Below are positions 8,251-24,717 of a stretch of 64,000 nucleotides of DNA, piece by piece. The translations under genes and the position numbers were made by a program. The notes below the pieces were generated by a model. It saw only the letters and a list, made by a program, of their open reading frames with translations. It was not told the origin of the DNA and ran no database searches. Positions within the stretch are counted from its first letter, which is position 1. Each line of letters opens with the position of its first letter. The stretch covers positions 62,001 through 126,000 of the forward strand of contig JAHCBA010000018.1 in assembly GCA_019634625.1 (NCBI GenBank), read 5' to 3'. Origin of the DNA: Verrucomicrobiia bacterium (GTDB lineage Bacteria; Verrucomicrobiota; Verrucomicrobiia; Limisphaerales; CAIMTB01).

Positions 8251-8267
8251 CGGCACGGTGCGCGCAA
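8251..8267 (+). promoter_or_regulatory. Weak sigma-54-like -24/-12 candidate upstream of the Hdr/hydrogenase operon
   Basis: CGGCACGGTGCGCGCA has the invariant GG (8252-8253) and GC (8264-8265) with the required 10-base spacing and a matching GGCACG, but the -12 block is GCGC rather than TTGC. It lies about 150 bases before the first operon gene. In a GC-rich genome a chance match is quite possible. Confidence 0.22.
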
Positions 8268-8414
8268 CCCACCAATCCCCATGAACGCGGTACACGGCAG
8301 TTCCCAGGCCGGTCCGCCGTTCCCGCTCCCGGGGGTGCCGGGAGTGGCTTCGACGAGGGGGATGCTGTTGTCCGGGGCTGGCATCAGGGCCGGCCATTTC
8401 CCGCGAGGTACCCG

Positions 8415-9017
8415 ATGAAGCTCGACCGCACGATCCGGCTGGAAGGCGACCGGGATCCGAATTTCGCCCGGCAGGTGATGGCGATTCCCGGGTGCGAACG
8501 CCTGAAGGACTGCATCCAGTGCGGGACGTGTTCGGGGGTGTGTCCGTTGAGCCTGTACATGGATCATGGTCCGCGGCAGGTGATGGCGCTGGCGCGGGCG
8601 GGGTTCCGGGAGGAGGCGTTGCGGAGCCGGACGCTGTGGTTGTGCGCGTCGTGTTATGCCTGCACGACCGAGTGTCCGCGGCAGATCCGGATCACGGACA
8701 TTCTGTACGAGCTGAAGCAGCGGGCGATCCGGGAGGGATTGGCGCCGCGGACCTTGCCGACCCCGACGCTGGCCCGGGAGTTTGCGGCGATGGTGTCGCG
8801 GCGGGGGCGGGTGACGGAGAGCGAGCTGGTGATGCGGCTGTATTGGAAGACCGACTGGCTGGCGGCCCTGGGGAACTGGCGGCTGGGTCTGGGTCTGATG
8901 AAGCGGGGCCGGTTCCCGCTGCGGCCGGAACGGGCGGCGGGTGCGGCGGAGTTGAGGCGGATGCTGGAGGACCGGGGTGAGGCGGAGGAGGGGACGAAAG
9001 AGGTGGCCCGATCCTGA
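8415..9017 (+). CDS. hdrC: HdrC-like heterodisulfide reductase subunit, two [4Fe-4S] clusters
   Basis: 200 aa. Two classical cluster motifs: Cys33/36/39/43 (DCIQCGTCSGVCP) and Cys77/80/83/87 (CASCYACTTECP). HdrC passes electrons between the flavin subunit HdrA and the catalytic-cluster subunit HdrB. The first gene of the operon; the ATG at 8415 gives a compact N-terminus like the family. The C-terminal ~90 residues are basic and lack further clusters. Bacterial HdrABC sets commonly reduce an as yet unassigned disulfide rather than CoM-S-S-CoB. Confidence 0.93.
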   Translation: MKLDRTIRLEGDRDPNFARQVMAIPGCERLKDCIQCGTCSGVCPLSLYMDHGPRQVMALARAGFREEALRSRTLWLCASCYACTTECPRQIRITDILYELKQRAIREGLAPRTLPTPTLAREFAAMVSRRGRVTESELVMRLYWKTDWLAALGNWRLGLGLMKRGRFPLRPERAAGAAELRRMLEDRGEAEEGTKEVARS

Positions 9018-9053
9018 GACCGAACGTTCGAAATCCAACCCATTGGAGGCCCC

Positions 9054-9995
9054 ATGCCCTACGGATACTTTCCTGGCTGCTCGCTGCGCGGAACGGGCCG
9101 TGCGTATGAGGAGTCGCTGCTGCCGGTGTTCCGGCATCTGGGACTCGAACTGACCGAACTGACCGACTGGAACTGCTGCGGGGCGACGGCGTACATGTCG
9201 GTGGACGAGACGCAGGCATGCGTGCTGGCGGCGCGGAACCTGGCGCTGGCGGAGCGGGAAGGGCACGGCGAGGTGGTGGCGCCGTGCAGCGCCTGTTACC
9301 TGGTGTTGAACAAGGCGAGGCACTATCTCGAGGAGTATCCGGCGATGGCGGAGAGGGTGCAGGGGGCGCTGGGGCGGGGCGGGATGGGGGTGCGGGGCCG
9401 GGTGGCGGTGCGGCATCCCCTGGATGTGCTGGCCAACGATGTGGGCTGGGAGGCGATCCGGGCGAAGGTGACGCATCCGTTGCGGGGGTTGCGGGTGGCG
9501 CCGTACTACGGGTGCCAGATTGTGCGGCCGTACGCGACCTTCGACGACCCGCACGATCCGGTGTCGATGGACCGCCTGTTCGAGGCGCTGGGGGCGACGG
9601 TGGTGCGGTGGCCGCTCAAGACCAAGTGCTGCGGGGGCAGTCTGACGGGAACGATCCCGGAGGCGGGGGTGCGGCTGGTGTATCACCTGTGCCGGGAGGC
9701 GTTGAAGCGCGGGGCGCAGGTGATCGCGACGGTGTGTCCGCTGTGCCAGTTCAATCTGGATGCGTACCACGACGACATTGCCCGGCGCTGGGAGGATGTG
9801 CGGATTCCGACGGTGTATTTCACGCAGTTGATGGGGCTGGCCTTTGGGCTGGCGGAGTCGGAACTGGGGTTGCACCGGGGATTTGTGCGGATGCGATGGA
9901 GGAGGGGGGAGGGGGAGATTGCGAGCAAGAGCAAGATTACGAGCAAGAGCAAGATTACGAGTAAGGGTGGGAGTGAGAGGGGGGAGGGAACATGA
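9054..9995 (+). CDS. hdrB: HdrB-like subunit with two CCG domains and a repeat-derived tail
   Basis: 313 aa. Two cysteine-rich CCG motifs are complete: C9...C41C42...C78xxC81 and C154...C192C193...C228xxC231, which in HdrB hold the non-cubane [4Fe-4S] clusters that cleave a disulfide. A GGAGG ribosome site lies 8 bases before the ATG. The family ends near residue 280; the last ~30 residues (SKSKITSKSKITSK then a Gly/Glu tail) are encoded by a tandem array of 6-bp units at 9922-9966 and look like a late addition. The gene overlaps hdrA by four bases. Confidence 0.94.
   Translation: MPYGYFPGCSLRGTGRAYEESLLPVFRHLGLELTELTDWNCCGATAYMSVDETQACVLAARNLALAEREGHGEVVAPCSACYLVLNKARHYLEEYPAMAERVQGALGRGGMGVRGRVAVRHPLDVLANDVGWEAIRAKVTHPLRGLRVAPYYGCQIVRPYATFDDPHDPVSMDRLFEALGATVVRWPLKTKCCGGSLTGTIPEAGVRLVYHLCREALKRGAQVIATVCPLCQFNLDAYHDDIARRWEDVRIPTVYFTQLMGLAFGLAESELGLHRGFVRMRWRRGEGEIASKSKITSKSKITSKGGSERGEGT
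9922..9966 (+). repeat. Tandem hexamer array inside the 3' end of hdrB
   Basis: Two copies of an 18-bp unit (GAGCAAGAGCAAGATTAC), followed by GAGTAAGG. The units are multiples of six, so the array stays in frame and encodes SKSKIT repeats. The GATTAC unit is the reverse complement of the GTAATC unit in the intergenic array at 35594-35666. Confidence 0.85.
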
Positions 9996-12007
9996 GGAAG
10001 GGGGAGGCCATGGAACCAGGACGCGAAGAGATCCGGATCGGGTTCTACGTCTGTCACTGCGGACACAACATCGCAGCGATGGTGGATTGCGAGGCGGTGG
10101 CGCGGTATGTGGGGAAGCTGCCGGGGGTGGTGGCGTCGCGGGATTACCGGTACATGTGTTCCGATCCCGGTCAGGATTTGATCCGGCGGGATGTTGGGGA
10201 GCACGGGTTGAACCGGATCGTGGTGGCGGCGTGCTCGCCGCTGCTGCACGAGCAGACCTTCCGGACGGCGACGGAGCGGGCGGGATTGAATCCGTTCTTC
10301 TGTCATCTGGTGAACATCCGGGAGCACAACTCGTGGGTGGCGTTGCGGAAGCAGGATGCGACGCGGAAGGCGAAGGCTCTGGCGCAGGCGGCGATTCACC
10401 GGGTGCGTTTCCATCGGGCGCTGGAGGTGAAGCGGGTGCCGATCCGGCCGGAGGTGCTGGTGGTGGGGGGCGGGATTGCGGGGATTCATGTGGCGCTGAC
10501 GCTGGCGAACGCCGGGAAGAAGGTGTTTCTGGTCGAGCGGGAGGCGACGCTTGGGGGGCACATGGCGAAGTTCGACAAGACCTTTCCCACGCTGGACTGC
10601 TCGGCGTGCATCTTGACGCCTAAGATGTCGGCGGTGCGGGCGCACCCGAACATCACCCTGTGGTCGCTGTCGGAGGTCGAGCGGGTGGAGGGGTTTGTGG
10701 GCAACTACAAGGTTCGGGTGCGGCGACGTCCGAGGTACATCCTGGAGGAGGCGTGCGTGGGCTGTCTTGAGTGTGTGGATGCGTGTGTGTACCGCACGCC
10801 GAAGTTCGAGGATGCGTTCAACGAGGGGTTGGGGAAGCGCAAGCCGATCTACATACCGTTTCCGCAGGCGACGCCCAAGGTGGTGCTGATCGATCCGGCG
10901 ACCTGTCTCAATCTGCGGACGGGGAAGTGCAAGAAGACCTGTGTTGAGGCGTGCGGGGACCGGCAGGCGATCGACTTCACGCAGACGGACACGTACGAGG
11001 ACATCGAGGTGGGGAACATCGTGGTGGCCACGGGATTCCGGACCTTCGATGCGCGGCGCCAGCCGCAGTACGGGTACGGCACCCATCCGAACGTGTACAC
11101 GGCGCTGGAGATCGAGCGGTTGGTGAACGCCTCGGGACCGACGGGCGGGGAGATTGTGGGACGGGACGGGAAGAAGCCGCGGGCGGTGGGGATCATTCAC
11201 TGCGTTGGGTCGCGGGACCGGAAGACGCATGTGTGGTGTTCGCGGGTGTGCTGCATGTACTCGATGAAGCTGGCGCACCTGGTCCGGGAGCATGCCGGGG
11301 CGGAGGTGTACAACTTCTACATCGACATCCGGACTCCGGGGAAGGGGTACGAGGAGTTCTACAACAAGCTGCTGGATGACGGCGTGCACTTCATCCGGGG
11401 ACGGGTGGGGGAGGTGACGGACTGGGCGATTGCGCCGGAGGAGGAGGGACGGCTGGTGATCCGGGTTGAGGACACGCTGGCCGGGTGCACGCGCCGGATT
11501 CCGGTGGACATGGTGGTGCTGGCGACGGGGTTGGAACCGCAGGCGGATGCGCAGGCGGTGCGGCGGTTGTTCAACATGAGCTGCGGCGGGGACGGGTGGT
11601 TTCTGGAGCGGCATCCGAAGCTGGCGCCGGTGAACACGTTTGCCGACGGGGTGTTTCTGGCGGGCTGCTGCCAGGGGCCGAAGGACATTCCGGATTCGGT
11701 GGCCCAGGCGGGGGCGGCGGCGGCGGAGGTGTTGAGCCTGATCGACCGGGGGTACGTCGAGCAGGAACCCAACACCGCGTACGTGCGGGACGAGGACTGT
11801 TCGGGCTGCAAGTCGTGCGTGCCGTTGTGTCCGTATCAGGCCATCGGATTCGACACCGGCCGGAACCGGGCGGTGATCCAGGAGGCGCTGTGCAAGGGAT
11901 GCGGGACGTGTGTGGCGGCCTGTCCGTCGGGGTCGATTGTGCAGCGGCTGTTCGAGGACGACGAAGTGTTCGCGGAAATCGAAGGAGTGCTGGCCTATGA
12001 CGCCTGA
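9992..12007 (+). CDS. hdrA: HdrA, FAD-containing electron-bifurcating subunit
   Basis: 671 aa. The N-terminal domain has the FYVCHCGHNI and AACSPLLHEQTF Cys motifs of HdrA. The thioredoxin-reductase-like FAD domain starts at residue ~154 (VLVVGGGIAGIHVALTLANAGKKV). An inserted cluster lies at C255/258/261/265, and the C-terminal ferredoxin domain has two clusters (C603/606/609/613 and C634/637/640/644). HdrA splits electron pairs between ferredoxin and the HdrB disulfide site. The ATG at 9992 overlaps the hdrB stop; an internal ATG at 10010 is an alternative. Its partners MvhD and a [NiFe] hydrogenase follow at once, matching the Mvh-Hdr arrangement. Confidence 0.96.
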   Translation: MRKGEAMEPGREEIRIGFYVCHCGHNIAAMVDCEAVARYVGKLPGVVASRDYRYMCSDPGQDLIRRDVGEHGLNRIVVAACSPLLHEQTFRTATERAGLNPFFCHLVNIREHNSWVALRKQDATRKAKALAQAAIHRVRFHRALEVKRVPIRPEVLVVGGGIAGIHVALTLANAGKKVFLVEREATLGGHMAKFDKTFPTLDCSACILTPKMSAVRAHPNITLWSLSEVERVEGFVGNYKVRVRRRPRYILEEACVGCLECVDACVYRTPKFEDAFNEGLGKRKPIYIPFPQATPKVVLIDPATCLNLRTGKCKKTCVEACGDRQAIDFTQTDTYEDIEVGNIVVATGFRTFDARRQPQYGYGTHPNVYTALEIERLVNASGPTGGEIVGRDGKKPRAVGIIHCVGSRDRKTHVWCSRVCCMYSMKLAHLVREHAGAEVYNFYIDIRTPGKGYEEFYNKLLDDGVHFIRGRVGEVTDWAIAPEEEGRLVIRVEDTLAGCTRRIPVDMVVLATGLEPQADAQAVRRLFNMSCGGDGWFLERHPKLAPVNTFADGVFLAGCCQGPKDIPDSVAQAGAAAAEVLSLIDRGYVEQEPNTAYVRDEDCSGCKSCVPLCPYQAIGFDTGRNRAVIQEALCKGCGTCVAACPSGSIVQRLFEDDEVFAEIEGVLAYDA

Positions 12008-12563
12008 CCACTGGACGCCGCGGATCGTGGCGTTTTTCTGCAACTGGTGCACGTACACCGCGGCGGATCTGGCCGGGGTGTCGCGGCTGCGATACGCGCC
12101 CAACGTGCGGATCATCCGGCTGATGTGTTCGGGGCGGGTGGACCCGCAGTTCGTGCTGGACGCCCTGGCGCGGGGGGCGGACGGGGTGCTGATCGGGGGG
12201 TGTCATCCGGGCGACTGCCATTACGTCGAGGGGAACACCAAGATGCTGCGCCGGTTCCGGATGCTGCGGCGTCTGCTGGCCGGCTTTGGGATCGAGGAGG
12301 AGCGGGTGCGGCTGGAATGGATCTCGGCGGCCGAGGGGGAGAAGGTGCGAACCGTCATCAACGACATGACGGAACGGATCCGGGCGCTGGGGATGCTGGG
12401 GTTGCCGATGCGGTTCGAGGAATGGGACCGGGAGATGGGTCATCTGGAAGGGGAGATCCGGGAGCGGGCGACGGACCTGGATCCGGACGACGATGAGGCG
12501 GGGGAGGAGGGGGAACCTGAAGTGCCGGCGGCGGCGCAGCGACCGGAGGCGAGCCATGTCTAA
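11997..12563 (+). CDS. mvhD: MvhD, [2Fe-2S] linker between hydrogenase and HdrA
   Basis: 188 aa. Conserved cysteines C15, C18 (FFCNWCTYTAADLAG), C44 (RLMCSGRVDP), C69 and C74 (IGGCHPGDCHY) define the family. MvhD carries electrons from the hydrogenase small subunit to HdrA. It overlaps hdrA by 11 bases and the next gene by 8. The last ~25 residues are acidic (DLDPDDDEAGEEGE) and vary in the family. Confidence 0.94.
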   Translation: MTPDHWTPRIVAFFCNWCTYTAADLAGVSRLRYAPNVRIIRLMCSGRVDPQFVLDALARGADGVLIGGCHPGDCHYVEGNTKMLRRFRMLRRLLAGFGIEEERVRLEWISAAEGEKVRTVINDMTERIRALGMLGLPMRFEEWDREMGHLEGEIRERATDLDPDDDEAGEEGEPEVPAAAQRPEASHV

Positions 12564-13536
12564 ACCGAAGGTGGGCTTCTACTGGTGCGCCTCGTGTGGC
12601 GGGTGCGAGGAGGCGGTGGTGGACCTGGCGGAGGATCTGGTGGAAGTGACCGCGGCGGTGGAGATCGTGTTCTGGCCGTGCGCGATGGACTTCAAGCGGG
12701 CGGACGTCGAGCGCCTTGGGGACGGGGAGATTGCGGCGACCTTTCTGAACGGGGCGATCCGGACGGAGGAACAGGAGGAGATGGCGCGGCTGTTGCGGCG
12801 GAAGAGCGCGCTGCTGGTGGCGTACGGGGCCTGCGCGCAACTGGGCGGGATTCCCGGTCTGGCCAACGGGTTTTCGCGGGAGACGATGATGCGGTTCTAC
12901 TTTGAGGACGGGCCGTCCACGGTGAACCCCGAAAGGGTGCGACCGGCGCCGGAGACCCCGGCGCATGGGGCGGCCTTGGAACTGCCGCGGTTGCGGCGGG
13001 TGGTGCGTTCGCTCGACCAGGTGGTGCCGGTGGACTACGCGCTGCCGGGATGTCCCCCGACACCGAAGCTGACGCGGCAGGCGATCGACGCGCTGCTGTC
13101 GGGGACGCTGCCGGCGCGGGGAAGCGTGCTGGCGCCGGACACGGCGCTTTGCGACGAGTGTCCGCGGCGGGACAGCAAGCCCACGGACGTTGCCTTCCGG
13201 GAATTCCGGCGTCCGGACCGGACCCGGCTGGAGCCGGGCGTTTGTTTTCTGGCGCAGGGCGTGGTGTGTCTGGGTCCGGGCACGCGGGCGGGGTGCGAGG
13301 CGCCGTGCGTGCGGGGGAACATGCCGTGCTCGGGGTGTTTCGGGCCCACATCGCGGGTGCGCGACCAGGGGGCGAAGGTGCTGTCGTCGCTGAGTTCGAA
13401 TGTGGAACCGCGGGACGAGGCAGGAATCGACGCGGTGCTGGCGGGGATACCGGACCCGGTGGGGACGTTTTACCGGTACGGGCTGGCGAAGAGCCTGTTG
13501 CGTCGCCGGGTGGATCTGCCGAACGAACCGGAGTGA
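12556..13536 (+). CDS. mvhG: [NiFe] hydrogenase small subunit, group 3c (MvhG-like)
   Basis: 326 aa. The N-terminus FYWCASCGGCEEAVVDL holds the proximal-cluster cysteines (C11, C14, C17), with GACAQLGGIPGLAN and ALPGCPP further on. The C-terminal half has the ferredoxin-like Cys groups of group 3 small subunits (CDECPRR, CLGPGTRAGCEAPC, MPCSGC). I choose the ATG at 12556 because it gives the family N-terminus directly; the open frame starts 21 codons earlier within mvhD. It passes electrons from the Ni-Fe site to MvhD. Confidence 0.93.
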   Translation: MSKPKVGFYWCASCGGCEEAVVDLAEDLVEVTAAVEIVFWPCAMDFKRADVERLGDGEIAATFLNGAIRTEEQEEMARLLRRKSALLVAYGACAQLGGIPGLANGFSRETMMRFYFEDGPSTVNPERVRPAPETPAHGAALELPRLRRVVRSLDQVVPVDYALPGCPPTPKLTRQAIDALLSGTLPARGSVLAPDTALCDECPRRDSKPTDVAFREFRRPDRTRLEPGVCFLAQGVVCLGPGTRAGCEAPCVRGNMPCSGCFGPTSRVRDQGAKVLSSLSSNVEPRDEAGIDAVLAGIPDPVGTFYRYGLAKSLLRRRVDLPNEPE

Positions 13537-13540
13537 GACC

Positions 13541-15070
13541 ATGGATGCCGCTGCGAGAGACCTTTGGAACCGGGCCCATTCGCGGGTGAACGCCGAGTAC
13601 CGGGAGGAACGGCGGCGGGTGACCATCGATCCGATCACGCGGCTCGAGGGGCACGGGAAGATCGATGTGTTTCTGGACGAACACGGGGAGGTTGAGAGGG
13701 CGTATCTGCAGATTCCGGAGATGCGGGGGTTCGAGACATTCAGCTTGGGGCGACCGGCGGAGGAGATGCCGCAGATCACCAGCCGGATATGCGGGGTCTG
13801 TCCGACGGCGCATCACATGGCGGCGGCGAAGGCGCTGGATGCGCTGTACCAGGTCGAGCCGCCGCCGGCGGGGCGGAAGATCCGGGAACTGGTGTACCAC
13901 GCCTTCATGATGGAGGACCATGCGCTGCACGTGTACCTGCTGGGGGGGCCGGATTTCATTGTCGGTCCGGACGCGCCGCCCGGGGAGCGGAACGTGCTGG
14001 GGGTGATCCGGAAGGTGGGGATTGAGACGGGGCGACGGGTGATTGCGATGCGGCGGCGGCTGCGGGAGCTCATCGCGTATTTCGGGGGCAAGGTGATTCA
14101 TCCCGTGCTGGGGCTGCCGGGCGGGGTGTCGAAGGGGCTGGAACCGGAGAAGCTGGGGGAATTCAAGCAACTGGCCCGGGACAACCTGGATTTCGCGATG
14201 TTCACGAACCAGGTGTTCAAGGACCTGGTGTGGAAAAACCCGGACTACGTGCGCCTGATCACCTCCGAGGCCTACACCCACCGGACGCATTACATGGGGA
14301 TGGTTGATGAGCAGAACCGGGTGAACTTCTACGACGGGCAGTTGCGGGTGGTGCGGCCGGACGGGACGGAGTACGCGAAGTTTCCGGCCGACCGGTATCT
14401 CGATTTCATTGCCGAGCATGTCGAGCCGTGGAGTTATGTGAAGTTCTGCTATCTCAAGCCGCTGGGGTGGCATGGGTTCACGGAAGGGCCGGAGAGTTCG
14501 GTGTACGCGGTGGCGCCGCTGGCGCGGCTGAACGCGTCGGACGGGATGTCCACCACCCTGGCGCAGACCGCGTACGACGTCTTCTTCAACACCGTCGGGG
14601 CGAAGCCCGTGCATCACACCCTGGCCAACCACTGGGCGCGGGTGATCGAGATGATCCACGCGGCCGAGCGGATCGTGGAACTGGTGAACGATCCGGAGCT
14701 GCTGTCGCCGGACATCCGGACGCTTCCCACGGCGACGCCGCGGCGGGGGATCGGGGTGGTGGAGGCGCCGCGCGGGACCCTGATCCACCATTTCGAGACC
14801 GACGAGCGGGGATTGATCGAGAAGGCGAACCTGATTGTGGCCACGCAGAACAACGCGGCCCGGATTGCGATGAGCGTGGACCGGGCGGCGAAGAACCTGA
14901 TCCACAAGGGGGAGGTTTCGGAGGGATTGATGAACCGCATCGAGATGGCCTTCCGCGCCTACGACCCGTGTTTCGGGTGCGCGAGCCATGCGCTTCCGGG
15001 GCACCTGCCGCTGCGGGTGCGCCTTTACGACCCTCAACGCCGGCTGGTCCGGGAACTGGTCCAGGAATGA
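13541..15070 (+). CDS. mvhA: [NiFe] hydrogenase large subunit, group 3c-like (MvhA), catalytic
   Basis: 509 aa. Both nickel-binding motifs are intact: RICGVCPTAHH (C84, C87) and DPCFGCASH (C477, C480, H483), so this should be an active H2-oxidising or H2-evolving enzyme. A C-terminal extension of 26 residues follows His483 and would be removed by the endopeptidase encoded next, a standard maturation step. The start ATG at 13541 follows the small-subunit stop by four bases. The cluster with HdrA and MvhD is what makes 3c the best group; the HydB and HydG homologues downstream are usually partners of group 3b, so a mixed complex is possible. Confidence 0.94.
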   Translation: MDAAARDLWNRAHSRVNAEYREERRRVTIDPITRLEGHGKIDVFLDEHGEVERAYLQIPEMRGFETFSLGRPAEEMPQITSRICGVCPTAHHMAAAKALDALYQVEPPPAGRKIRELVYHAFMMEDHALHVYLLGGPDFIVGPDAPPGERNVLGVIRKVGIETGRRVIAMRRRLRELIAYFGGKVIHPVLGLPGGVSKGLEPEKLGEFKQLARDNLDFAMFTNQVFKDLVWKNPDYVRLITSEAYTHRTHYMGMVDEQNRVNFYDGQLRVVRPDGTEYAKFPADRYLDFIAEHVEPWSYVKFCYLKPLGWHGFTEGPESSVYAVAPLARLNASDGMSTTLAQTAYDVFFNTVGAKPVHHTLANHWARVIEMIHAAERIVELVNDPELLSPDIRTLPTATPRRGIGVVEAPRGTLIHHFETDERGLIEKANLIVATQNNAARIAMSVDRAAKNLIHKGEVSEGLMNRIEMAFRAYDPCFGCASHALPGHLPLRVRLYDPQRRLVRELVQE

Positions 15071-15633
15071 ACCTGACACGTCTGCATCTGCTGCTGGGAT
15101 TGGGAAACGAACTGCTCCGGGACGACAGCGTGGGCCTGCACGCGGTGCGGGCGCTGCGGCCGCGGCTGGACGGGCGGTTCGACTGGGATGTGGCGGAGAA
15201 CATGGAGGGGGGGCTGGCCATGCTCGATGCGTGGGCCGGACACGAGGATGTGGTGCTGGTGGACGCGGTACGGACCGGGCGGCGTCCGGTGGGATGGGTG
15301 CATTTATGGAGCGGGGACGATCTGCCTCGCCTGGTGAGGGGGTCGCTGCATGCGATGGGGGTGGGCGAGGTGCTGGCGCTGGGGCGCCTGCTGGGGATGC
15401 GGATGCCGCGATGGCTGACGGTGCTGGGCGTCGAGGTGCTCGACGCGGAGACACTGGATACGGAACTGACGGAGGAGCTGCGCCGGGCGTTCCCCCTGGT
15501 GGTGGAACGGGTGTGGACGGTGATTGGCGAGCGGTCGATTCCTCCGCGGGCGACGCTGCGCCGGGAGCTGCCCTGGCAGCCGGCCGCGAGGGGTGCCTGG
15601 GCGGACGGGGGCGCTTCATGTGTCATACGCTGA
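15067..15633 (+). CDS. [NiFe] hydrogenase maturation endopeptidase (HycI/HyaD family)
   Basis: 188 aa. GLGNELLRDDSVGLHAV is the family N-terminal motif with the metal-binding acidic residue, VVLVDAVRTG the second, and LHAMGVGEVLAL supplies the conserved His. It overlaps the large-subunit stop in an ATGA. Each protease is usually specific for one large subunit; its position next to the cytosolic hydrogenase implies that target. The C-terminal ~40 residues extend past the usual end of the family. Confidence 0.9.
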   Translation: MNLTRLHLLLGLGNELLRDDSVGLHAVRALRPRLDGRFDWDVAENMEGGLAMLDAWAGHEDVVLVDAVRTGRRPVGWVHLWSGDDLPRLVRGSLHAMGVGEVLALGRLLGMRMPRWLTVLGVEVLDAETLDTELTEELRRAFPLVVERVWTVIGERSIPPRATLRRELPWQPAARGAWADGGASCVIR

Positions 15634-17702
15634 CGACGTGCACCTTCTGCGGGGTGGGCTGCGGTCTTTACCTCGAGACCGAGGGGGATCGCGTGGTGGG
15701 GGTGGTGCCGTGCCGGGAGCATCCGTCCAGTGCGGGCCGGTTGTGTGTGCGGGGCTGGCATGTCCACGAGGTGGCGGGATCGCCCGAGCGGCTGCGGGCG
15801 CCACGGATCCGGGAGGGGACGACGTGGAGGGAGGCCGGGTGGGACGAGGCGCTGGATTGCGTGGCGGGACGGTTCCGGTCCATCCGGGACCGGTACGGGC
15901 CGGAGGCGATCGCCTTTCTGAACTCGCCGCGCAGTTCGAATGAGGAGGCCTATCTCCTGCAGAAGCTCGCCCGGGCGGTGATCGGGACGCCGCATGTGGA
16001 CCATGGGGCCGGGGTGTACGGGCACCATTCGGTGGAAGTGTTGCTCGACCAGCTTGGAGTGGCGGCGGCGACGGGGGTGCTGGCGGATTTGAACCGAAGC
16101 GACGTGCTGCTGGTGGACGGGGTGGATCTGGCCCGGCAACTGCCGACGCTGGCGGGAACCGTGTTGAGGGCGCGGCTGGCGGGGGCGACGCTGCTGGTGG
16201 TGGACGCGCGGCGGCACCGGGTGGCCGAGAGTGCGGATGTCTTCCTGCAGGTGCGTCCGGGGACCTCGGCGATTCTGTACGGGGCCATGGCGCGGGTCAT
16301 TGTCGATCGGGGTCTGCAGAACCGGGACTTCCTGGCGGGGCGGGTGCGGGATGTGCCGTCCTTTCTCGATGCGGTGCGGACGTACGATCTGCTGGAAGCA
16401 GCGGAGCGGTGCGGGTTGCCGGCACGGACGATCGAGGCGGCGGCGATCGCCTGGGCGCGGGCGCGGGCGGGAGCGGCGATGTATTCGACGGCGGACGCCG
16501 CGCGCACCGGGGAGAGCGTGGCGGCGCTGGTGAACCTGGTGCTGCTGTGCGGTCAGGTGGGGCGTCCGGGGGCGGGGCTGTATCCGTTGGCGGAGCACAA
16601 CAACCTTCAGGGGGTATGCGATGTCGGCATGCTTCCCGACCGGTTGCCGGGGTATCGGGCGGTCGCGGACGCGGGGGCGCGGGCGGAGGTCGAGGCGGTG
16701 TGGGGGGCGCCGGTGCCGGACCGGGCCGGGGCCTCGGCGCGGGACATTCTGGCGGGCGGGCATCCGGAGATCCGGGCGTTGTGGCTGGGGCGGTACGATC
16801 CGGTGAGCACGGCGTTTGCGGGGGGGGCGGAGCGGACGTTGAAGGGCATGGAATTTGTGGCGATGCAGCACCTGTTCTGGAGCGGGGCGGCGGAGCTGGC
16901 GCATGTGGTCCTGCCGACCACGGCGTTCGGGGAGGAGACGGTCACCTTCACCAGCACGGATCGCAGGATCCAACGGGTGCGACAGGCGGTGCCGGCGTTG
17001 CCGGGACTGGAGCCGGCGTGGCGGCAGATCGTGTCCCTGGCCGGGCGCCTTGGGGCGTCGTGGGCGTACGGGGACGAGGAGGAAGTCTGGCGGGAGATTG
17101 GCCGGGTGGTGCCGGCGTATCGAGGGGCGTGTCAGGAGCGGCTGGATGCGGGGTACGGGTGTCCGTGGCCGTGCACGGACGAGCATCCGCGGGGGACGGA
17201 CGTGCTGTATGAGGAGGCGCGGGGTTGCGGCGGCGGATCCGATGGGGAGACGGGGAGGGAAGGATTGGAGGGAGGCGGCGGGGACCATGGACGGCCGTTT
17301 CGGATGCGGGCGATGGCGTGCCCGGAGGACGAGCCGGCGGACGGGGCGTATCCGTTCACCCTGATCTTCGGGGATTCGCTGTACTACTGGCATCGGAACG
17401 TGCTGGTGCGGCACAGCGAGACGCTGCAACGGGAGTACCGGATGCTGCTGCTCGATTACCCGGACGGGTTTGTGGAGATGCACGGCGACGATGCGGCATC
17501 GATCGGGGTGCGGGATGGGGGGCGGATCCGGTTGTGTTCCGAGCATGGGTGCGCGGTGACGACGGCGCGGGTGACGGAGGAGGTGCGGCGGGGTTCGGTG
17601 CATGTGCCGTATTTCCTGCGGGAAGTGGAGGAGGCGATTCTGGGTCCGCGGGCCGGGACGGCGCGGTTGCTGCCGGTCCGCATCAGCAAGGAGGGCGCAT
17701 GA
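15618..17702 (+). CDS. Formate-dehydrogenase-like molybdopterin oxidoreductase lacking the catalytic residues
   Basis: 694 aa, alignable by eye over its whole length with E. coli FdhF. The N-terminal [4Fe-4S] cluster is intact (C8, C11, C15, C43), and later blocks match (HNNLQGVCDVGMLPDRLPGY; VLPTTAFGEETVTF). The metal-ligand Sec/Cys position is Tyr134 and the adjacent His is Gly135 (GAGVYGHHSV against ARVUHGPSV). The formate-binding Arg and Gln of FdhF (333, 335) are Ala325 and His327. It should therefore not oxidise formate and may act, like NuoG, as an electron-conducting scaffold. No separate FdhB gene is present. The ATG at 15618 overlaps the protease gene. Confidence 0.85.
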   Translation: MCHTLTTCTFCGVGCGLYLETEGDRVVGVVPCREHPSSAGRLCVRGWHVHEVAGSPERLRAPRIREGTTWREAGWDEALDCVAGRFRSIRDRYGPEAIAFLNSPRSSNEEAYLLQKLARAVIGTPHVDHGAGVYGHHSVEVLLDQLGVAAATGVLADLNRSDVLLVDGVDLARQLPTLAGTVLRARLAGATLLVVDARRHRVAESADVFLQVRPGTSAILYGAMARVIVDRGLQNRDFLAGRVRDVPSFLDAVRTYDLLEAAERCGLPARTIEAAAIAWARARAGAAMYSTADAARTGESVAALVNLVLLCGQVGRPGAGLYPLAEHNNLQGVCDVGMLPDRLPGYRAVADAGARAEVEAVWGAPVPDRAGASARDILAGGHPEIRALWLGRYDPVSTAFAGGAERTLKGMEFVAMQHLFWSGAAELAHVVLPTTAFGEETVTFTSTDRRIQRVRQAVPALPGLEPAWRQIVSLAGRLGASWAYGDEEEVWREIGRVVPAYRGACQERLDAGYGCPWPCTDEHPRGTDVLYEEARGCGGGSDGETGREGLEGGGGDHGRPFRMRAMACPEDEPADGAYPFTLIFGDSLYYWHRNVLVRHSETLQREYRMLLLDYPDGFVEMHGDDAASIGVRDGGRIRLCSEHGCAVTTARVTEEVRRGSVHVPYFLREVEEAILGPRAGTARLLPVRISKEGA

Positions 17703-18796
17703 AGGCGCGGTTGACGGACACGGCGGGGCTGGGGCGGCTGCTGGACGCGTTCCGGGAGGAGGGGTGGGAGGTGGTGGCGCCGATGGAGGGGCGGGGACGG
17801 GACACGTTTTTCGAAAGGGTGACCGAGGCCAACCGTGGGGCGGTGCGATGGCATCTGCCGAACCCGGCGACGCCGGCGAAGCGATATGTCTTCCCGCCGA
17901 TCGAGTCGTTGTTCCGGATGGCGCGGGCCGATGGAAGCTGGGAGATCCGGCCGGTGACCGGGGCGCGGCGGCGGGCGTTGTTCGGGGTGCGGTCGTGCGA
18001 CCTGGCGGGATTGCGGCACCTGGACCGGTTCTTCCTGGGGGGGGCGTACCGGGACGGGTACTACGCTGCGCGGCGCGAGGCGTTGTTCCTGGTGAATGTC
18101 GTCTGCACGGATCGCGAGCGGGACATCGGGGACGATTGTTTCTGTGTGTGCACGGACACCGGACCGGCGGCGCGGGAGGGGTTCGATCTGCAGTTGATGG
18201 ATCTGGGCGGGGACCGCTGGATGGTGGTGGCGGGGACGCCGGCGGGGGAGGCGCGGTTGGAAGGGGCGGGGTTCGAGGCGTGCACGGCCGAGGCGGTGGC
18301 CCGTCGGAGGGACGTGCTGGAGGCGGTACGCGGCCAGTTCCGGACCACCACGAGCTGGTTTCCCGCGACGGTGCGGTATGTGTCGCGGGGGGAGGTGCTG
18401 GAATCGACGTGGGAGGAGATCGGGCGACGGTGTGTGGAGTGCGGGGGCTGCACGTATGTGTGTCCGGCCTGCACCTGCTTCACGATGACCGACCGGCGGA
18501 CGGGTCCGGAGAGCTGGGAACGGGTCCGGCTGTGGGATGCGTGCGCGCTGGGCGGGTTCACGCGGATGGCGGGCGGGCACAATCCGAGGCGGGCGGTGCA
18601 TGACCGGCGCAACCGGCGGTTTTTCCGGAAGCTGGCGCAGTACTTCATCGAGCGGGAACTGAGCATGGCCTGCGTGGGGTGCGGCCGGTGCGCGTCGGTG
18701 TGCCACGGGGATGTCGGGATGCCCTCGGTGGTGGAGATGATCCGGAGGGCGACGGCACGGAACGGCGGGGGCGGAAAGGAGGCGGAAACGCCATGA
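17699..18796 (+). CDS. Sulfhydrogenase beta-like iron-sulfur subunit (HydB/AsrA family)
   Basis: 365 aa. The N-terminal part has the family marks VFPPIESLFRM and FGVRSCDLAGLRHLDRFF. The C-terminal part has two cluster motifs, C245/C248/C251/C255 (plus C258) and C325/C328/C331/C335. In archaeal sulfhydrogenase and in anaerobic sulfite reductase A, this subunit wires the NAD(P)-flavin subunit to the rest of the complex. It overlaps both neighbours by four bases, and the flavin partner follows directly. Confidence 0.9.
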   Translation: MKARLTDTAGLGRLLDAFREEGWEVVAPMEGRGRDTFFERVTEANRGAVRWHLPNPATPAKRYVFPPIESLFRMARADGSWEIRPVTGARRRALFGVRSCDLAGLRHLDRFFLGGAYRDGYYAARREALFLVNVVCTDRERDIGDDCFCVCTDTGPAAREGFDLQLMDLGGDRWMVVAGTPAGEARLEGAGFEACTAEAVARRRDVLEAVRGQFRTTTSWFPATVRYVSRGEVLESTWEEIGRRCVECGGCTYVCPACTCFTMTDRRTGPESWERVRLWDACALGGFTRMAGGHNPRRAVHDRRNRRFFRKLAQYFIERELSMACVGCGRCASVCHGDVGMPSVVEMIRRATARNGGGGKEAETP

Positions 18797-19641
18797 ACCC
18801 GGGGTTGTCCGACAACCTGTATCTGCCGCGCCCGGCGATTCTGGAGCGGGTGACGGACGAGATCGACGAGGTGCGGACGTTTCACTGGCGGTTCGAGGAT
18901 CCGGCGGATGGGGAGGCGTTCCGGAAGTTCCGTCCGGGACAGTTTGCGCAGGTCTCGATGTACGGTGTGGGGGAGTTTCCGGCGTCGCTGCCGCCGAGTC
19001 CGACGGAGGGGGAGACCTTTTTCACGGTGCGCCGGGTGGGGGCCTGCACGGCGGCGCTGCACGGCATGCGGGCGGGCGACCGGTTCGGGGTGCGGGGTCC
19101 GTACGGGAACGGATTTCCGATGGAATCGTATGAAGGACGGAACCTGCTGTTTGTGGCGGGCGGGATCGGACTGATCCCGTTGCGGTCGTGCATCCGGTAT
19201 GCGATGGCGCGGCGGGAGCGGTATGGCCGGATCCTGATCCTGCTGGGGGCGCGTTCGCCGCGCGAACTGATGTACCGGAGCGACCTCGAGGCGTGGGGGC
19301 GGGATGCCGGGGTGGAGTGCCACCTGACGGTGGACCGGGCGACGGAGGGATGGGGCGGGCATGTGGGCGTGGTGGGCGGGCTGTTCCGGAGGGAGGAGGT
19401 CCGGTTGCCGGTGGCGGACACGGTGGCGTTCGTGTGTGGGCCGCCGGTGATGTTCCGGTTTGTGATCCGGGACCTGCTGGCGCTGGGATTCTCCGGGGAG
19501 GCGATCGTGTCCACGCTGGAGCGGTACATGAAGTGCGGGGTGGGCAAGTGCGGGCACTGCTGCATCGGGGTGGCGTATGTGTGCGTGGACGGCCCGGTGT
19601 TCAGCTACGCGCAGATTCAACGGCTGGGGGAGGACATATGA
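18793..19641 (+). CDS. Sulfhydrogenase gamma-like NAD(P)/FAD diaphorase subunit (HydG/AsrB family)
   Basis: 282 aa ferredoxin-NADP reductase fold. An FAD-binding barrel (KFRPGQFAQVSMYGVGEFP), GPYGNGFPME, then the nucleotide domain (FVAGGIGLIPLRSCIRYA, CGPPVMFRFV) and a C-terminal [2Fe-2S] motif (MKCGVGKCGHCCIG...C). This is the pyridine-nucleotide port of group 3b hydrogenases. Here it would connect NAD(H) or NADP(H) to the Hdr/Mvh assembly; which nucleotide cannot be told by eye. Confidence 0.91.
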   Translation: MNPGLSDNLYLPRPAILERVTDEIDEVRTFHWRFEDPADGEAFRKFRPGQFAQVSMYGVGEFPASLPPSPTEGETFFTVRRVGACTAALHGMRAGDRFGVRGPYGNGFPMESYEGRNLLFVAGGIGLIPLRSCIRYAMARRERYGRILILLGARSPRELMYRSDLEAWGRDAGVECHLTVDRATEGWGGHVGVVGGLFRREEVRLPVADTVAFVCGPPVMFRFVIRDLLALGFSGEAIVSTLERYMKCGVGKCGHCCIGVAYVCVDGPVFSYAQIQRLGEDI

Positions 19642-20120
19642 GCACCGGACTGGACGCGGTCATGGACGGGGCGTTGCGGGGCCGGGTGGCGGTGGTGGGG
19701 CTGGGGGAGGTGGCGTCGGGGGACGACGGTGCCGGGGTGCGTCTGGTGCGGGCGCTGAGGAGGCGCCGCCGGGGTTGCCGGTGTGTGGAAGCCGGCACGG
19801 CACCGGAGCGGCACCTGTGCGGACTGGGACGGGAGGAACTGGACGCGGTGCTGCTGGTGGACGCGGTGGATTTCGGAGGGGCGGCGGGGGCGGTGGGGTG
19901 GTGGGGGACGGAAGAGATCCGGGCGCGGTATCCGCAGGTGGGCACGCACCGGCTCTCGCTGGGTTTGATGGCGCGGGCGTTGTCCGGGGAGGGCAGGACA
20001 CGGGTCTGGCTGCTGGGGGTGCAGCCGGGGTCGATGCGGCGGGGGGCCGGGCTGTCGGGTCCGGTGGCACGGACCTGCGGCGGGCTGCTGAGGCTGTTGT
20101 GCGGCGTGTTGCGGGATTGA
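19638..20120 (+). CDS. Second [NiFe] hydrogenase maturation endopeptidase
   Basis: 160 aa. GLGEVASGDDGAGVRLVRAL replaces the usual GNxLxxDDGxG; the first conserved Asn is a Glu-containing variant. VLLVDAVDFGG and THRLSLGLM follow. It lies between the cytosolic diaphorase genes and the membrane hydrogenase genes, so its likely target is the group 4 large subunit at 22112, whose cleavage site follows Arg530. Two separate proteases for two separate hydrogenases fit the known one-to-one specificity. Confidence 0.82.
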   Translation: MSTGLDAVMDGALRGRVAVVGLGEVASGDDGAGVRLVRALRRRRRGCRCVEAGTAPERHLCGLGREELDAVLLVDAVDFGGAAGAVGWWGTEEIRARYPQVGTHRLSLGLMARALSGEGRTRVWLLGVQPGSMRRGAGLSGPVARTCGGLLRLLCGVLRD

Positions 20121-20123
20121 CGG

Positions 20124-22115
20124 ATGGACGAGGCGCGTATGCCCACGGCGGAACAACTGGTGATGACGGCGATGCTCCTGTGCGGGGCGGGGGCGGTGGC
20201 GACGTCGTGGGGTGGGAGGCGGGCGCGTTGGGCGGGGCGGGTGAATGTGGCGGTCACGGTGGCGAGCGGCCTGGCGGCGGGCTGGGGGGCGATGGCGGTG
20301 CTGGCCATGGGGCCGGGGGAGTCGGTGCAATTCCTGCGCATGCCTCGGGTGGGGTTTGCGTTGCGGCTGCATGTGGACGGGTTGAGCGCGGAGTTCCTGC
20401 TGCTGGCGGCGGGGATATCGATTCCGGCCTCGGTGTATTCGCTGCGGTACCTGGAGCACTACCGTGGGGACACCGGGCGGTATCACCCGCCGTTTCTGGT
20501 TTTTCTGGCGGCGATGTACGGGCTGGTGAGCACCACCGACATGATGTGGTTCTTCTTCATCTTCTGGCAGCTCATGACCCTGCCCGGGTATGCGCTGATC
20601 CGGTATGAACGGAACCGGCCGGAACATCGGAGGGCGGCATGGCGGTATCTGGTGATGATGCAGATCGCCTGCGTCATCACGATGGCGGGAGCGGAATTGG
20701 TGGCGGGGCCGGGCGGGGGGGCGGCGGCCGGGAACGGGTTGCGGTACGACTTCGGCACGGTCACGGCGCAACTGCCGGAACTGCTGCGGGACCGGCCGGG
20801 AACGACGACCCTGGCCTTTGCGCTCTTCCTGGCCGGGTTTGGCATCAAGATGGGGATGTGGCCGTTCGGGCAGGTCTGGCTGCCGGACGCGCATCCGGCG
20901 GCGCCGTCGCCGGTGAGCGCGATGTTGTCGGGGGTGATGATCAAGACCGGGGTGTACGGGTTGGTGCGGTACTTCTTCTGGCTGGTGCCGGAGGAGGGGC
21001 GGGAGGCGTTCCCGCTGGCGGCGTGGGGGGGATGGGTGACGGTGTTGGGGACGGTGACGCTGCTGACGGGGACGGTGCAGGCATTGCGGCAGGACGCGAC
21101 GAAGCGGCTGCTGGCGTTCAGCAGCATCGGGCAGGTGGGGTACATCCTGCTGGGGGTGGGGATGGCGATGGTGCTGCTGCCGAGGGGAGGAAAGTGGGCG
21201 GCGCTGGGGACGTTCGCGCTGGCGGGGGCGCTGTTGCATGTGTGGAACCACGGGGTGTTCAAGGCGCTGCACTTCCTGCATGCCGGATCCATTCTGAGGG
21301 CGACCGGGACGCAGGATTTGAACCGGCTGGGCGGGCTGATGCGGGCGATGCCATGGACCGGGGCGACGGCGTTGGTGGCGACGCTGGCGATCGCCGGGGT
21401 GCCGCCGCTGAACGGGTTTGTGAGCAAGTGGGCGCTGTACAGCGCGGCGTTTGGGGCGGGGCGCGAGGTCTGGTTTCTGGCGTTGTGCGGGATGGTGGCG
21501 CTGTTCACCGGGGCGCTGACGCTGGCGTTGTTCGTGAAGTTCTTCGGGGTGAGTTTTCTGGGGCGATCCGGACCGTGGTCGGGGCCCTGGGTGACGACGG
21601 CGGCAGACGACGGCCCTTCGAACGGTGCGGGGAACGGGATGAGCCGGCGTCGGCCGGGACTGGAGGCGAGCCGGGAAGTGCCGGGAACGATGCTGGGGGC
21701 CCAGGGAGCCCTGGCGGCGTTGTGCGTGGTGCTGGGCCTGGTGCCGGGGATCGGGTTGGGGGCGATGGCGCAGGCGATGCGGACGAGTCCGGGCGGGTAC
21801 GGTCCGGTGCTGGTATCGGGGATGACCGGGGAAGGGGGTTGGTGGAGATGGGAAGGTCCGGGCGGGGTGTCGCTGCTGATGCCGCTGGCGGTGGTGGCGA
21901 TGCTGGGGATCGGTTACGGGCTGGCGTCGTGGGTGGTGCGGTGGGGAGGGGCGAAGCGGCGTCAGGATGCGCCGTGGTTGTGCGGGTACGCGGTGGAGGC
22001 GGATGAGCACCGGTATGGGGCGCGCCAGTTCTATGGCGAGTTGAAGCGGTGGACACGGTGGGCGGGAGGCGAGGCGCCCCGGGCGCGCGATGCGGGAAGG
22101 GAGGAGGCACCATGA
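20124..22115 (+). CDS. Ion-translocating membrane subunit of group 4 hydrogenase (HyfB/HycC/MrpD type)
   Basis: 663 aa, about 14-16 transmembrane helices. The proton-conducting antiporter-like core is clear: LHVDGLSAEFLLLAAGISIP, the helix with MWPFGQVWLPDAHPAAPSPVSAMLSGVMIKTGVYGL (conserved Lys and His), and HVWNHGVFKALHFLHAGSI. The C-terminal part carries a cytoplasmic loop and an end segment (YAVEADEHRYGARQFYGELK). It is the only antiporter-type subunit in the cluster, so the complex has one ion channel rather than the several in Hyf or complex I. Overlaps the large-subunit gene by four bases. Confidence 0.92.
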   Translation: MDEARMPTAEQLVMTAMLLCGAGAVATSWGGRRARWAGRVNVAVTVASGLAAGWGAMAVLAMGPGESVQFLRMPRVGFALRLHVDGLSAEFLLLAAGISIPASVYSLRYLEHYRGDTGRYHPPFLVFLAAMYGLVSTTDMMWFFFIFWQLMTLPGYALIRYERNRPEHRRAAWRYLVMMQIACVITMAGAELVAGPGGGAAAGNGLRYDFGTVTAQLPELLRDRPGTTTLAFALFLAGFGIKMGMWPFGQVWLPDAHPAAPSPVSAMLSGVMIKTGVYGLVRYFFWLVPEEGREAFPLAAWGGWVTVLGTVTLLTGTVQALRQDATKRLLAFSSIGQVGYILLGVGMAMVLLPRGGKWAALGTFALAGALLHVWNHGVFKALHFLHAGSILRATGTQDLNRLGGLMRAMPWTGATALVATLAIAGVPPLNGFVSKWALYSAAFGAGREVWFLALCGMVALFTGALTLALFVKFFGVSFLGRSGPWSGPWVTTAADDGPSNGAGNGMSRRRPGLEASREVPGTMLGAQGALAALCVVLGLVPGIGLGAMAQAMRTSPGGYGPVLVSGMTGEGGWWRWEGPGGVSLLMPLAVVAMLGIGYGLASWVVRWGGAKRRQDAPWLCGYAVEADEHRYGARQFYGELKRWTRWAGGEAPRARDAGREEAP

Positions 22116-23797
22116 CGGTTCATGAGCGGCTCGAGCAGATTCGGGCGCACGGGGGCCCGGCGATCCGAAGGGCGTCGCTGCCGGGCGACCGGCGGCTGCT
22201 GGTCTGGGTCGAGGCGGCCTCGGTTCGGGAGGTGTGCCGATACCTGTTCCGGGATCTGGAGGCGCGATACGTGATCAGCGTGGGGGCCGACGACCGGCCC
22301 TATTCCGGGGGGTTCGTGGTGGCCCACATCTTCGCGTGGGACGGGGACGGATTGCTGGCCTGCGTGCTGGTGGAACTGCCGTCCGAGCGTCCGCGGCTGG
22401 ACAGCATCAGTCCGCTGGTGCCGGCGGCGGGTTGGGCGGAGCGGGAGTTCCGGGATCTGGTGGGGATCGAACCGGTGGGGCACCCGTATCCGAAGCGGCT
22501 GATCCTGCCGGACGGCTGGCCGGAGGGGGTGCATCCGTTGAGGAAGGATGTGGCGCACGACCATGTGCCGGACGGGTACGACGCGGAGAAGGAGTTTGGG
22601 TTCGACGAGGTGCCGGAGGGGTGCGTGGCGATCCCCTTCGGGCCGTTTCATCCGACCCTGGACGAGCCGGCGCATTTCCGGTTGTACGTCGAGGGGGAAC
22701 GGGTGCGGGGGTGCGAGTACCGGGGGTTCATGGTGCACCGGGGGATCGAGAAGCTGGCCGAGTCGGTGATGGGGTACAACGACATCCCGGTGATGGCCGA
22801 GCGCATCTGCGGCATCTGCGGGTGCGTGCATTCGGTGGCCTATGTGCAGGCGGTGGAGGAGGCGGCGGGCGTGCCGGTGCCGCCGCGGGCCGAGTACATC
22901 CGGACCGTGCTGCTCGAGATCGAGCGGCTGCACAGTCATCTCCTGTGGGTGGGTCTGGCGGGGCACCTGGTCGGCTTCGACACGCTGTTCATGCACGCCT
23001 TCCGGGTTCGGGAACCGGTGATGGAACTGGCGGAGCGGCTGACGGGGAACCGGAAGACCTATGGATTGTGCGTGGTGGGGGGTGTGCGTTGGGATTTGAA
23101 CGACACGGCGCGGGACGATTGCCGGCGGGTGATGGACCGGTTGGAGTCGGAATGGCGGGCATTGACGGGGCCGCTGCTGCGGGACGGGAATGTGCAGGCG
23201 CGGACGCGGGACATCGGGGTGGCGACGGCGGAGGCGGTGAAGGAACTGGGTCTGGTGGGGCCGGTGGCGCGGGCGGCCGGGGTGGACCTCGATGTCCGGC
23301 GCGACCATCCGTACGCGGCGTACGGACGGGTGGCATTCGAGGTGATCACCGCGGACGGGGGCGACGTGTGGGCGCGGGTGGTGGTGCGGGCCCTGGAGGT
23401 GTTCCAGTCGATCCGCATCGTGCGGCAGTGTCTGGACAAGATGGAACCGGGTCCGCTGGTGACGGTGCTGGACGGGGAACTGCCGGCGGGGCGCCTGGGG
23501 TTGTCGTCGGTCGAGGCGCCGCGGGGCGAGTCGCATCATTTCCTGGTGACCGGGGAAGGGAACCGGCCGCGGCGCTGGCGGGTGCGGGCGCCGACGTACC
23601 AGAATCTTCAGGGTGTGCCGGGAATGATCCGGGACCGGACGCTGGCGGACATGACGATTGCGCTGGGGAGCATCGATCCGTGTTTCTCCTGCACCGACCG
23701 GCTGGAGACAGTGGAGATTGGGACGGGGACGATGCGGGTCTGGACGGCGGAAGAGGTGGCGGAGCTGGGACGACGGCGGGAAGGGAGGCGGTCATGA
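22112..23797 (+). CDS. Group 4 [NiFe] hydrogenase large subunit, NuoC-NuoD-like fusion (HycE/HyfG type)
   Basis: 561 aa. Residues 1-~160 are the 30-kDa NuoC-like domain; the rest is NuoD-like. Unlike NuoD it keeps all four nickel cysteines: ERICGICGCVHS (C233, C236) and DPCFSCTDR (C524, C527), so it is a hydrogenase and not complex I. A 31-residue C-terminal peptide after Arg530 is the expected protease target. It would oxidise ferredoxin and evolve H2 while pumping ions, or run the reverse reaction. Confidence 0.94.
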   Translation: MTVHERLEQIRAHGGPAIRRASLPGDRRLLVWVEAASVREVCRYLFRDLEARYVISVGADDRPYSGGFVVAHIFAWDGDGLLACVLVELPSERPRLDSISPLVPAAGWAEREFRDLVGIEPVGHPYPKRLILPDGWPEGVHPLRKDVAHDHVPDGYDAEKEFGFDEVPEGCVAIPFGPFHPTLDEPAHFRLYVEGERVRGCEYRGFMVHRGIEKLAESVMGYNDIPVMAERICGICGCVHSVAYVQAVEEAAGVPVPPRAEYIRTVLLEIERLHSHLLWVGLAGHLVGFDTLFMHAFRVREPVMELAERLTGNRKTYGLCVVGGVRWDLNDTARDDCRRVMDRLESEWRALTGPLLRDGNVQARTRDIGVATAEAVKELGLVGPVARAAGVDLDVRRDHPYAAYGRVAFEVITADGGDVWARVVVRALEVFQSIRIVRQCLDKMEPGPLVTVLDGELPAGRLGLSSVEAPRGESHHFLVTGEGNRPRRWRVRAPTYQNLQGVPGMIRDRTLADMTIALGSIDPCFSCTDRLETVEIGTGTMRVWTAEEVAELGRRREGRRS

Positions 23798-24717
23798 CCT
23801 GGGGGATCGTCTGGGGCCTGGCGACGGGATTGGGGTATGCGTTGGGGGTGCTGGCGCTGGCGCCGCTGGTGGACGGCGCGATGCGGCGGGTGACGGCGCG
23901 GTTGCAGGCGCGGCAGGGACCGCCCCTGGCGCAGGGGTACTGGGATTTGCTGAAGCTGCTTGGGAAGGAGGACATCGAGGTGGGTGTGAGCCCGGTCATG
24001 CAGCGGGTGGCGGTGGGGATGGGCTGGGCGAGTGTGGTGGCGGTGGCGACCCTGGTGCCGCCCGGGGTGAGACCGGGCTGGGGAGTGGCGGGGGACGGCA
24101 TCCTGCTGATGTACCTGCTGGTGCTGGCGGGGGTGGGAACGTTGCTGGCGGGGCTGGCGGCGGGATCGACCTATTCGCTGGTCGGGATCAGCCGGGAGAT
24201 GATGAGCCTGCTGTTGCTCGAGCCGCTGCTGGCGATGGCGCTGGCGATGCGGGCGGTGCAGGAGGGGTCGTTGCGGTTGGAAGTGTTGTTTGGTCCGCCC
24301 GGTCTGCTGGGGGCGGGTCCGGTGTCGGGACTGCTGCTGCTGGGGGTATTGCTGGCGGCGTTGCCGGCGCTGGTGCAACGGGCGCCGTTCGACACGACGG
24401 AAGCGGAGACGGAGTTGATGGACGGGCCGATGGGGGAGTATTCGGGGCCGAAGCTGGCGCTGCTGCGGTGGGTGCGGATGGTGAAGCTGGTGGTGTACAG
24501 CGGGCTGCTGGTGATGGTGTTTGCGCCGCCTCCGGCGGGGTGGAGCACGGCCGGGGCGCTGCTGTGGTATTGGGGCTGGGTGGCGGTGTTGATCCTGGGG
24601 GTGACGCTGGTGGCGGCGACGCATGCGCGATATCGAATCGACCAGGCGTTGCGCCGGTTTGGAATCTGGCTGGGGCTGGCGACCATCGCCCTGCTGCTGG
24701 CCACGCAAGGTTACTGA
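23794..24717 (+). CDS. Membrane anchor subunit, NuoH/HycD/HyfC type
   Basis: 307 aa with eight predicted transmembrane helices. Loops carry the conserved charged motifs of NuoH-type proteins: RLQARQGPPLAQGYWDLLKLLGKEDI near the N-terminus, and RAPFDTTEAETELMDGPMGEYSGPKLALLRW in the middle. It links the hydrogenase arm to the ion channel subunit. Four-base overlap with the large-subunit gene. Confidence 0.94.
   Translation: MTWGIVWGLATGLGYALGVLALAPLVDGAMRRVTARLQARQGPPLAQGYWDLLKLLGKEDIEVGVSPVMQRVAVGMGWASVVAVATLVPPGVRPGWGVAGDGILLMYLLVLAGVGTLLAGLAAGSTYSLVGISREMMSLLLLEPLLAMALAMRAVQEGSLRLEVLFGPPGLLGAGPVSGLLLLGVLLAALPALVQRAPFDTTEAETELMDGPMGEYSGPKLALLRWVRMVKLVVYSGLLVMVFAPPPAGWSTAGALLWYWGWVAVLILGVTLVAATHARYRIDQALRRFGIWLGLATIALLLATQGY

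Follow-up and report, generated by a model that had tools for sequence, protein, structure and literature searches.

In formate hydrogenlyase 1 of E. coli (FdhF-HycBCDEFG, with HycI), HycB carries electrons from FdhF, a formate dehydrogenase (FDH). The complex I subunit NuoG is thought to have descended from an FDH, the metal site having been lost as a hydrogenase-like membrane arm and an NADH module came together. HydB/HydG of the P. furiosus sulfhydrogenase and AsrA/AsrB have no FDH-like subunit beside them and supply a group 3 hydrogenase and a sulfite reductase, respectively. Other members of the FDH superfamily have been described as devoid of molybdenum chemistry: the FdhF-like domain of StnC, in the Stn transhydrogenase, is catalytically inactive (PMC10482914), and QrcB lacks bis-MGD (PMC10772276). 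A combination similar to the one reported here is already known from Saganbacteria RX5A, where a group 4 hydrogenase region termed "enigmatic" includes cooF, asrA, asrB and a molybdopterin oxidoreductase that could not be classified (PMC6349859).

The window analysed here (the whole stretch of 64,000 nucleotides, from a Verrucomicrobiia bacterium) carries on its + strand a gene which we call fdhY (15618..17702), an unbroken open reading frame whose product of 694 aa is an FDH-like subunit with Tyr134 at the Sec/Cys site and an intact [4Fe-4S] motif (Cys8, 11, 15 and 43). It is followed, on the same strand, by an NAD(P)H module made of a HydB/AsrA-like iron-sulphur subunit of the sulfhydrogenase beta family (17699..18796; NF040833, TIGR02910, 9nez_B) and a HydG/AsrB-like FAD, [2Fe-2S] and NAD(P)-binding subunit of the gamma family (18793..19641; NF006220, TIGR02911), the same families as in the P. 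furiosus sulfhydrogenase and AsrA/AsrB. Next come a HycI-like hydrogenase maturation protease (19638..20120; 26% to E. coli HycI), a HyfB/HycC-like antiporter-type membrane subunit (20124..22115; NF005086; 37% to E. coli HycC over a part), a HycE-like large subunit of a group 4 [NiFe] hydrogenase (22112..23797; 41% to E. coli HycE, its best PDB match, over 535 aa), a HycD/NuoH-like membrane subunit (23794..24717; 32% to E. coli HycD), a HycF/NuoI-like ferredoxin subunit with two 4Fe-4S motifs (24731..25312; 35% to E. coli HycF) and a HycG-like small subunit (25309..25863; 50% to E. coli HycG), all on the + strand. The best family matches of the two NAD(P)H-module genes lie below the equivalog cut-offs; their cysteines are conserved, those of the HydB-like clusters in 24 out of 24 sequences. 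The Ni ligands of the large subunit are present (Cys233, 236, 524 and 527), with a CxxC at both ends in all 24 unbroken sequences.

This organization is conserved. The order of the fdhY, hydB, hydG, protease, hycC, hycE, hycD, hycF and hycG types was found in all 25 loci, as far as the contigs reach, with fdhY as the first gene of the conserved cluster in each of the 24 loci other than the window's. Short overlaps are frequent; fdhY and hydB share 4 bp in the window, as they do in roughly half of the loci. Compared with formate hydrogenlyase 1, the cluster contains counterparts of HycC, D, E, F, G, I and FdhF and keeps the Ni ligands, but it has no HycB counterpart, it has gained the HydB/HydG module, and FdhY, unlike FdhF, lacks Sec/Cys, His141 and Arg333. 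FdhY is probably a Mo-free, catalytically retired FDH which relays electrons and provides a scaffold within a group 4 membrane [NiFe] hydrogenase linked to NAD(P)H.

The conservation of the fold and of the N-terminal cluster, as first proposed, was borne out. By sequence, its closest PDB entries are FDHs, and these matches spanned the entire protein (FdhF of HDCR, 389 bits, E 3e-115; FdhF of E. coli, 299 bits, E 9e-88); the identity to the FdhF encoded in NC_000913 (E. coli) is 29%. The predicted structure (37 sequences; pLDDT 88.7, pTM 0.90) was superimposed by VIA-align on E. coli FdhF (1aa6) over 652 residues (Z 47.1, rmsd 2.8), and FDH structures matched it over residues 1-694, whereas complex I 75-kDa/NuoG chains did so only to about 612-637. 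According to this model, FdhY has the four-domain FDH fold with the N-terminal [4Fe-4S] cluster, whose four cysteines are invariant among orthologues. Domain IV is missing from NuoG chains and kept in the FdhY model, and this is what chiefly still speaks for a retained cofactor.

The active site was modified. In an alignment with 43 ligand-bearing FDHs including E. coli FdhF (NC_000913), Sec140 and His141 of FdhF correspond to Tyr134 and Gly135 of FdhY, while Arg333, Gly334 and Gln335 correspond to Ala325, Glu326 and His327. This confirms the loss of the Sec/Cys ligand, of the next His and of the Arg, as read in the initial annotation, which had counted four linked losses. Three of them stand; the fourth, Gln to His327, is correct as a residue but is normal FDH variation and no signal of loss, since B. 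subtilis YjgC (ForCE) has a His at this position and since position 327, either His or Gln, is Gln in 10 of the 25 orthologues. A shifted alignment hiding a Cys ligand, such as Cys265 or Cys311, was ruled out. With the profile of the 43 FDHs, Tyr134 keeps the ligand column at maximal posterior, and the cysteines of the window's FdhY (2, 8, 11, 15, 32, 43, 81, 265, 311, 334 and later) leave none between residues 81 and 265, so that a shift cannot supply a Cys ligand to this protein. In the model, a helix (136-145) starts just after Tyr134, within a block (131-140) of moderate confidence (69). The residue at 135 varies: 16 of the 25 sequences have Cys, and the other nine have Gly, Ser, Val, Thr or Ala, including the Gly of the window, for which a shift onto this adjacent Cys was likewise rejected; in two Tyr-Cys orthologues, Cys and not Tyr falls in the ligand column of the profile alignment.

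Tyr134 is invariant in all 25 FdhY sequences, which excludes chance or sequencing error. Arg45, His129, Gly130, Gly132 and Glu326 do not vary either, and the invariance of Tyr134, Arg45 and Glu326 shows that the site is under selection. Among 103 columns invariant in FDHs, 62 were retained and 41 altered in FdhY. The latter changes include several which the initial annotation had not listed and which are no less telling: Lys44 of FdhF to Arg45 and Cys136 to Gly130, as well as Asn176 to Asp (Asp170 in the window) and Gly402 to Arg (Arg392 in the window), each in 25 out of 25 sequences, Gly453 to Val or Ile (Val442 in the window), and the loss of Arg581, Asn662 and Lys679; position 325 is variable among orthologues. 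The substitution by Arg45 alone would not abolish the chemistry, since E. coli FdhF K44R retains 7% activity (PMC12176258). Two FDH glycines have become charged residues, 334 an invariant Glu and 402 an invariant Arg. Presumably, invariant side chains, among them those of Tyr134, Glu326 and Arg392, now fill the space left by the pterin. Such invariance could signal a function instead of filler, and the emptied pocket may have been rebuilt around these three residues for another cofactor or substrate, providing a new Mo-free catalytic input to a proton-moving hydrogenase, which we consider very unlikely.

The supply of molybdopterin was compared in the 25 fdhY genomes and in three controls without fdhY, most of these assemblies being fragmented. 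FdhD is the sulfur-transfer protein of FDHs. Its gene was found in the window's genome and in the three controls, and was absent from the other 24 of the 25 fdhY genomes. In the window's genome, fdhD (contig C5, 186622-187353) adjoins another Mo-type enzyme (PF01568 at 187536-187820), and the same pairing exists in a congener devoid of fdhY (G400). The moaA gene was detected in nine of the 25 fdhY genomes, the window's included (one copy is split by a frame shift), and was absent from the other 16, where only weak radical-SAM matches were seen; the distribution of moaC coincided exactly with that of moaA. Completeness reaches 91% or more in ten of these 16 genomes, and multiplying the incompleteness values gives 2e-18, a figure which assumes independence and serves as a guide only. 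Thirteen of the 16 encode no protein with an MGD-binding domain other than FdhY. It follows from the absence of moaA and moaC in 16 genomes, and of fdhD in 24, that FdhY works without molybdopterin, at least in those 16: fdhY, Tyr134 and the whole cluster persist where molybdopterin genes were not found. The initial proposal that FdhY, like NuoG, gave up Mo chemistry for another role is thereby strongly supported, while a new substrate at a Tyr-ligated metal is weakened as an option by the same 16 genomes.

In the nine genomes having both moaA and moaC, the window's among them, cofactor binding is possible. A Mo- or W-bisPGD may thus still be bound where it is made, with Tyr134 or no protein ligand, a new substrate then feeding the hydrogenase; the retention of all four FDH domains, pocket residues which are invariant rather than drifting and the moaA and moaC genes of the window's genome speak in its favour. 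We nevertheless regard this as decidedly improbable. The key positions are alike in the nine genomes and in the 16 without moaA and moaC, which show the same Tyr, Arg and Glu pattern and the same cluster; Glu and Arg replace FDH glycines 334 and 402, fdhD is missing in 24 of the 25 genomes, and the match to the MGD-binding domain PF01568 is truncated in FdhY, covering profile positions 11-78 of 110 compared with 1-110 in a genuine FDH. Two genomes of one genus (G398 and G506; loci L100 and L138) have nearly the same fdhY cluster, but G506 has moaA and moaC and G398 has neither, which points to a recent loss or gain of cofactor synthesis, or to a binning gap.

The distribution of fdhY is narrow. 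A total of 24 orthologues was found, at about 50-58% identity: within the window's order, fdhY occurs in 24 of 320 genomes (the window's and 23 others), the remaining orthologue (L007) belonging to a metagenome-assembled genome (MAG) named Acidobacteriaceae fen_335. No orthologue was present in 388 genomes sampled across the phylum, and four further genomes of the window's genus were devoid of fdhY. All FdhY sequences, with Tyr134, group in a single long-stemmed clade (SH-aLRT 100), which answers the initial question of whether such homologues form a clade. This clade joins NuoG-like rows (SH-aLRT 95), but long branches meet there, and the tree cannot tell whether the loss in FdhY was independent of that in NuoG; when the NuoG rows were removed, the position of FdhY among FDHs was not resolved.

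FdhY could be regarded as belonging to the NuoG family of complex I and as having moved to a hydrogenase, given this grouping and a Glu at FdhF position 334 shared with an FDH-like NuoG from a Desulfarculaceae MAG. This origin seems unlikely in view of the family scores, since FdhY reaches 480 bits with Fdh-alpha TIGR01591 (below the curated cut-off of 666) and only 91 bits with NuoG TIGR01973 (cut-off 470) in NCBIfam, as well as of its domain content: FdhY comprises three molybdopterin-family domains only, and the N-terminal 2Fe-2S and NADH-G 4Fe-4S domains of NuoG, present in the Desulfarculaceae protein, were not found in it. Neither is FdhY a stand-in for NuoG, because the window's genome has its own, short, complex I NuoG (G000:C66:8938-9987). 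As best read from these sequences, FdhY would have a NuoG-like role outside the NuoG family. It resembles NuoG and the FdhF-like domain of StnC in being FDH-derived, in lacking Mo chemistry and in its place between a flavoprotein module for pyridine nucleotides and another redox module. It differs from both in lacking the N-terminal [2Fe-2S]/4Fe-4S extension, in serving a formate hydrogenlyase-type hydrogenase, and in pairing with HydB/HydG rather than with NuoE/NuoF or StnAB (no NuoE or NuoF is among the genes of the cluster), and from NuoG chains in keeping domain IV. The A. mobile HydABCSL [NiFe] hydrogenase also has a NuoG-like subunit, HydA; 7t2r was a weak PDB match of FdhY.

The Desulfarculaceae NuoG itself (L009:9245-12001) lies in a complex I operon and has an unusually FDH-like C-terminal part; this part is about 35% identical to FdhY, carries Ala at the ligand site, retains Lys44 and has Glu in place of Gly334. 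No FdhY orthologue was found at a strict cut-off in 247 genomes of the phylum to which this MAG belongs. In the window's order, NuoG proteins are short (L169-L188 and G000:C66), mostly of about 560-630 aa, with much of the FDH-like domain missing.

Upstream of fdhY, the window contains, on the same strand, hdrC-hdrB-hdrA-mvhD-mvhG-mvhA (8163..15070), directly followed by a second maturation protease (15067..15633) which overlaps the start of fdhY and lies outside the conserved cluster. This complete hdrCBA-mvhDGA operon with its own protease (8163-15633) places two hydrogenase systems head to tail, which accounts for the two proteases. The initial annotation had placed FdhY in an Hdr-hydrogenase complex, here HdrABC-MvhADG, as an electron-carrying or structural subunit. 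The position of the operon directly upstream speaks for this, and a genuine, Cys-ligated FdhA does occur inside an hdr-mvh cluster elsewhere in the phylum (L104, genome G169). Such a partnership is nonetheless most improbable, and is already contradicted as a general role. Homologues carrying Tyr at the ligand site were indeed found, in 25 out of 25 cases, but only that of the window adjoins hdr and mvh: in 16 other loci the contig extends 5.9-8.9 kb upstream, and no hdr or mvh gene occurs in any of them, whereas the HydB/HydG and Hyc-type cluster follows fdhY in all 25. The operon is a local neighbourhood and no conserved partnership. The electron-carrying or structural role first envisaged for FdhY probably holds, with another partner.

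From a mechanistic point of view, the electron partner of a formate hydrogenlyase-type hydrogenase would have been switched from formate to NAD(P)H. We infer a physical complex, together with its electron route, proton coupling and reversibility. Electrons would pass, in either direction, along a chain of NAD(P)H, HydG (FAD, [2Fe-2S]), HydB (4Fe-4S), the [4Fe-4S] cluster of FdhY, the HycF-like and HycG-like subunits and the NiFe site, with reversible coupling to proton movement through the HycC/HycD-like arm. FdhY and HydB would then occupy the place of the missing HycB. Alternatively, HydB may transfer electrons straight to the HycF-like protein, leaving the cluster of FdhY off the path and FdhY as a pure scaffold. 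HydB and the HycF-like protein both have clusters of their own, and clusters C1/C2 of StnC were described as an evolutionary remnant that has no function (PMC10482914), which makes this arrangement conceivable, if rather less than probable: FdhY orthologues all keep the four cluster cysteines, and without HycB, which usually carries electrons to HycF, there is a gap that must be bridged.

The cluster looks like a NuoG-type step taken with other NAD(P)H subunits and with a hydrogenase which still has its Ni site. It also offers a built-in comparative test, the subunit persisting where molybdopterin genes are gone, and a warning that FDH family matches alone are no basis for inferring formate metabolism. 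As far as the published description of the Saganbacteria region goes, on which this comparison rests, that region shares with the present cluster a group 4 hydrogenase, an FDH-like protein unclassifiable as FDH, AsrA and AsrB, and additionally has CooF and Mrp antiporter-like subunits (PMC6349859). By analogy, FdhY suggests a reason why the Saganbacteria protein would not classify as an FDH, and may explain "enigmatic" group 4 hydrogenases associated with such a molybdopterin protein and asrA/asrB. Besides that cluster, literature searches found nothing on this exact subunit.

Minor variations were observed among the loci. One locus (L139) is broken by frame shifts; an apparent FdhY-HydB fusion there (an ORF of 1046 aa) was rejected, its junction being a frame-shifted VPxFVREVER end and other genes of this locus being broken too. 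Two loci of one genus (L096 and L144) have no HycC-like gene between the protease and hycE, and three others (L095, L100 and L138) have two HyfB/HycC-like antiporter-type genes instead of one. Finally, the HycF-like subunit carries an extra CxxCxxC motif (Cys126, 129 and 132 of the translated stretch), which is present in 22 of 23 orthologues.
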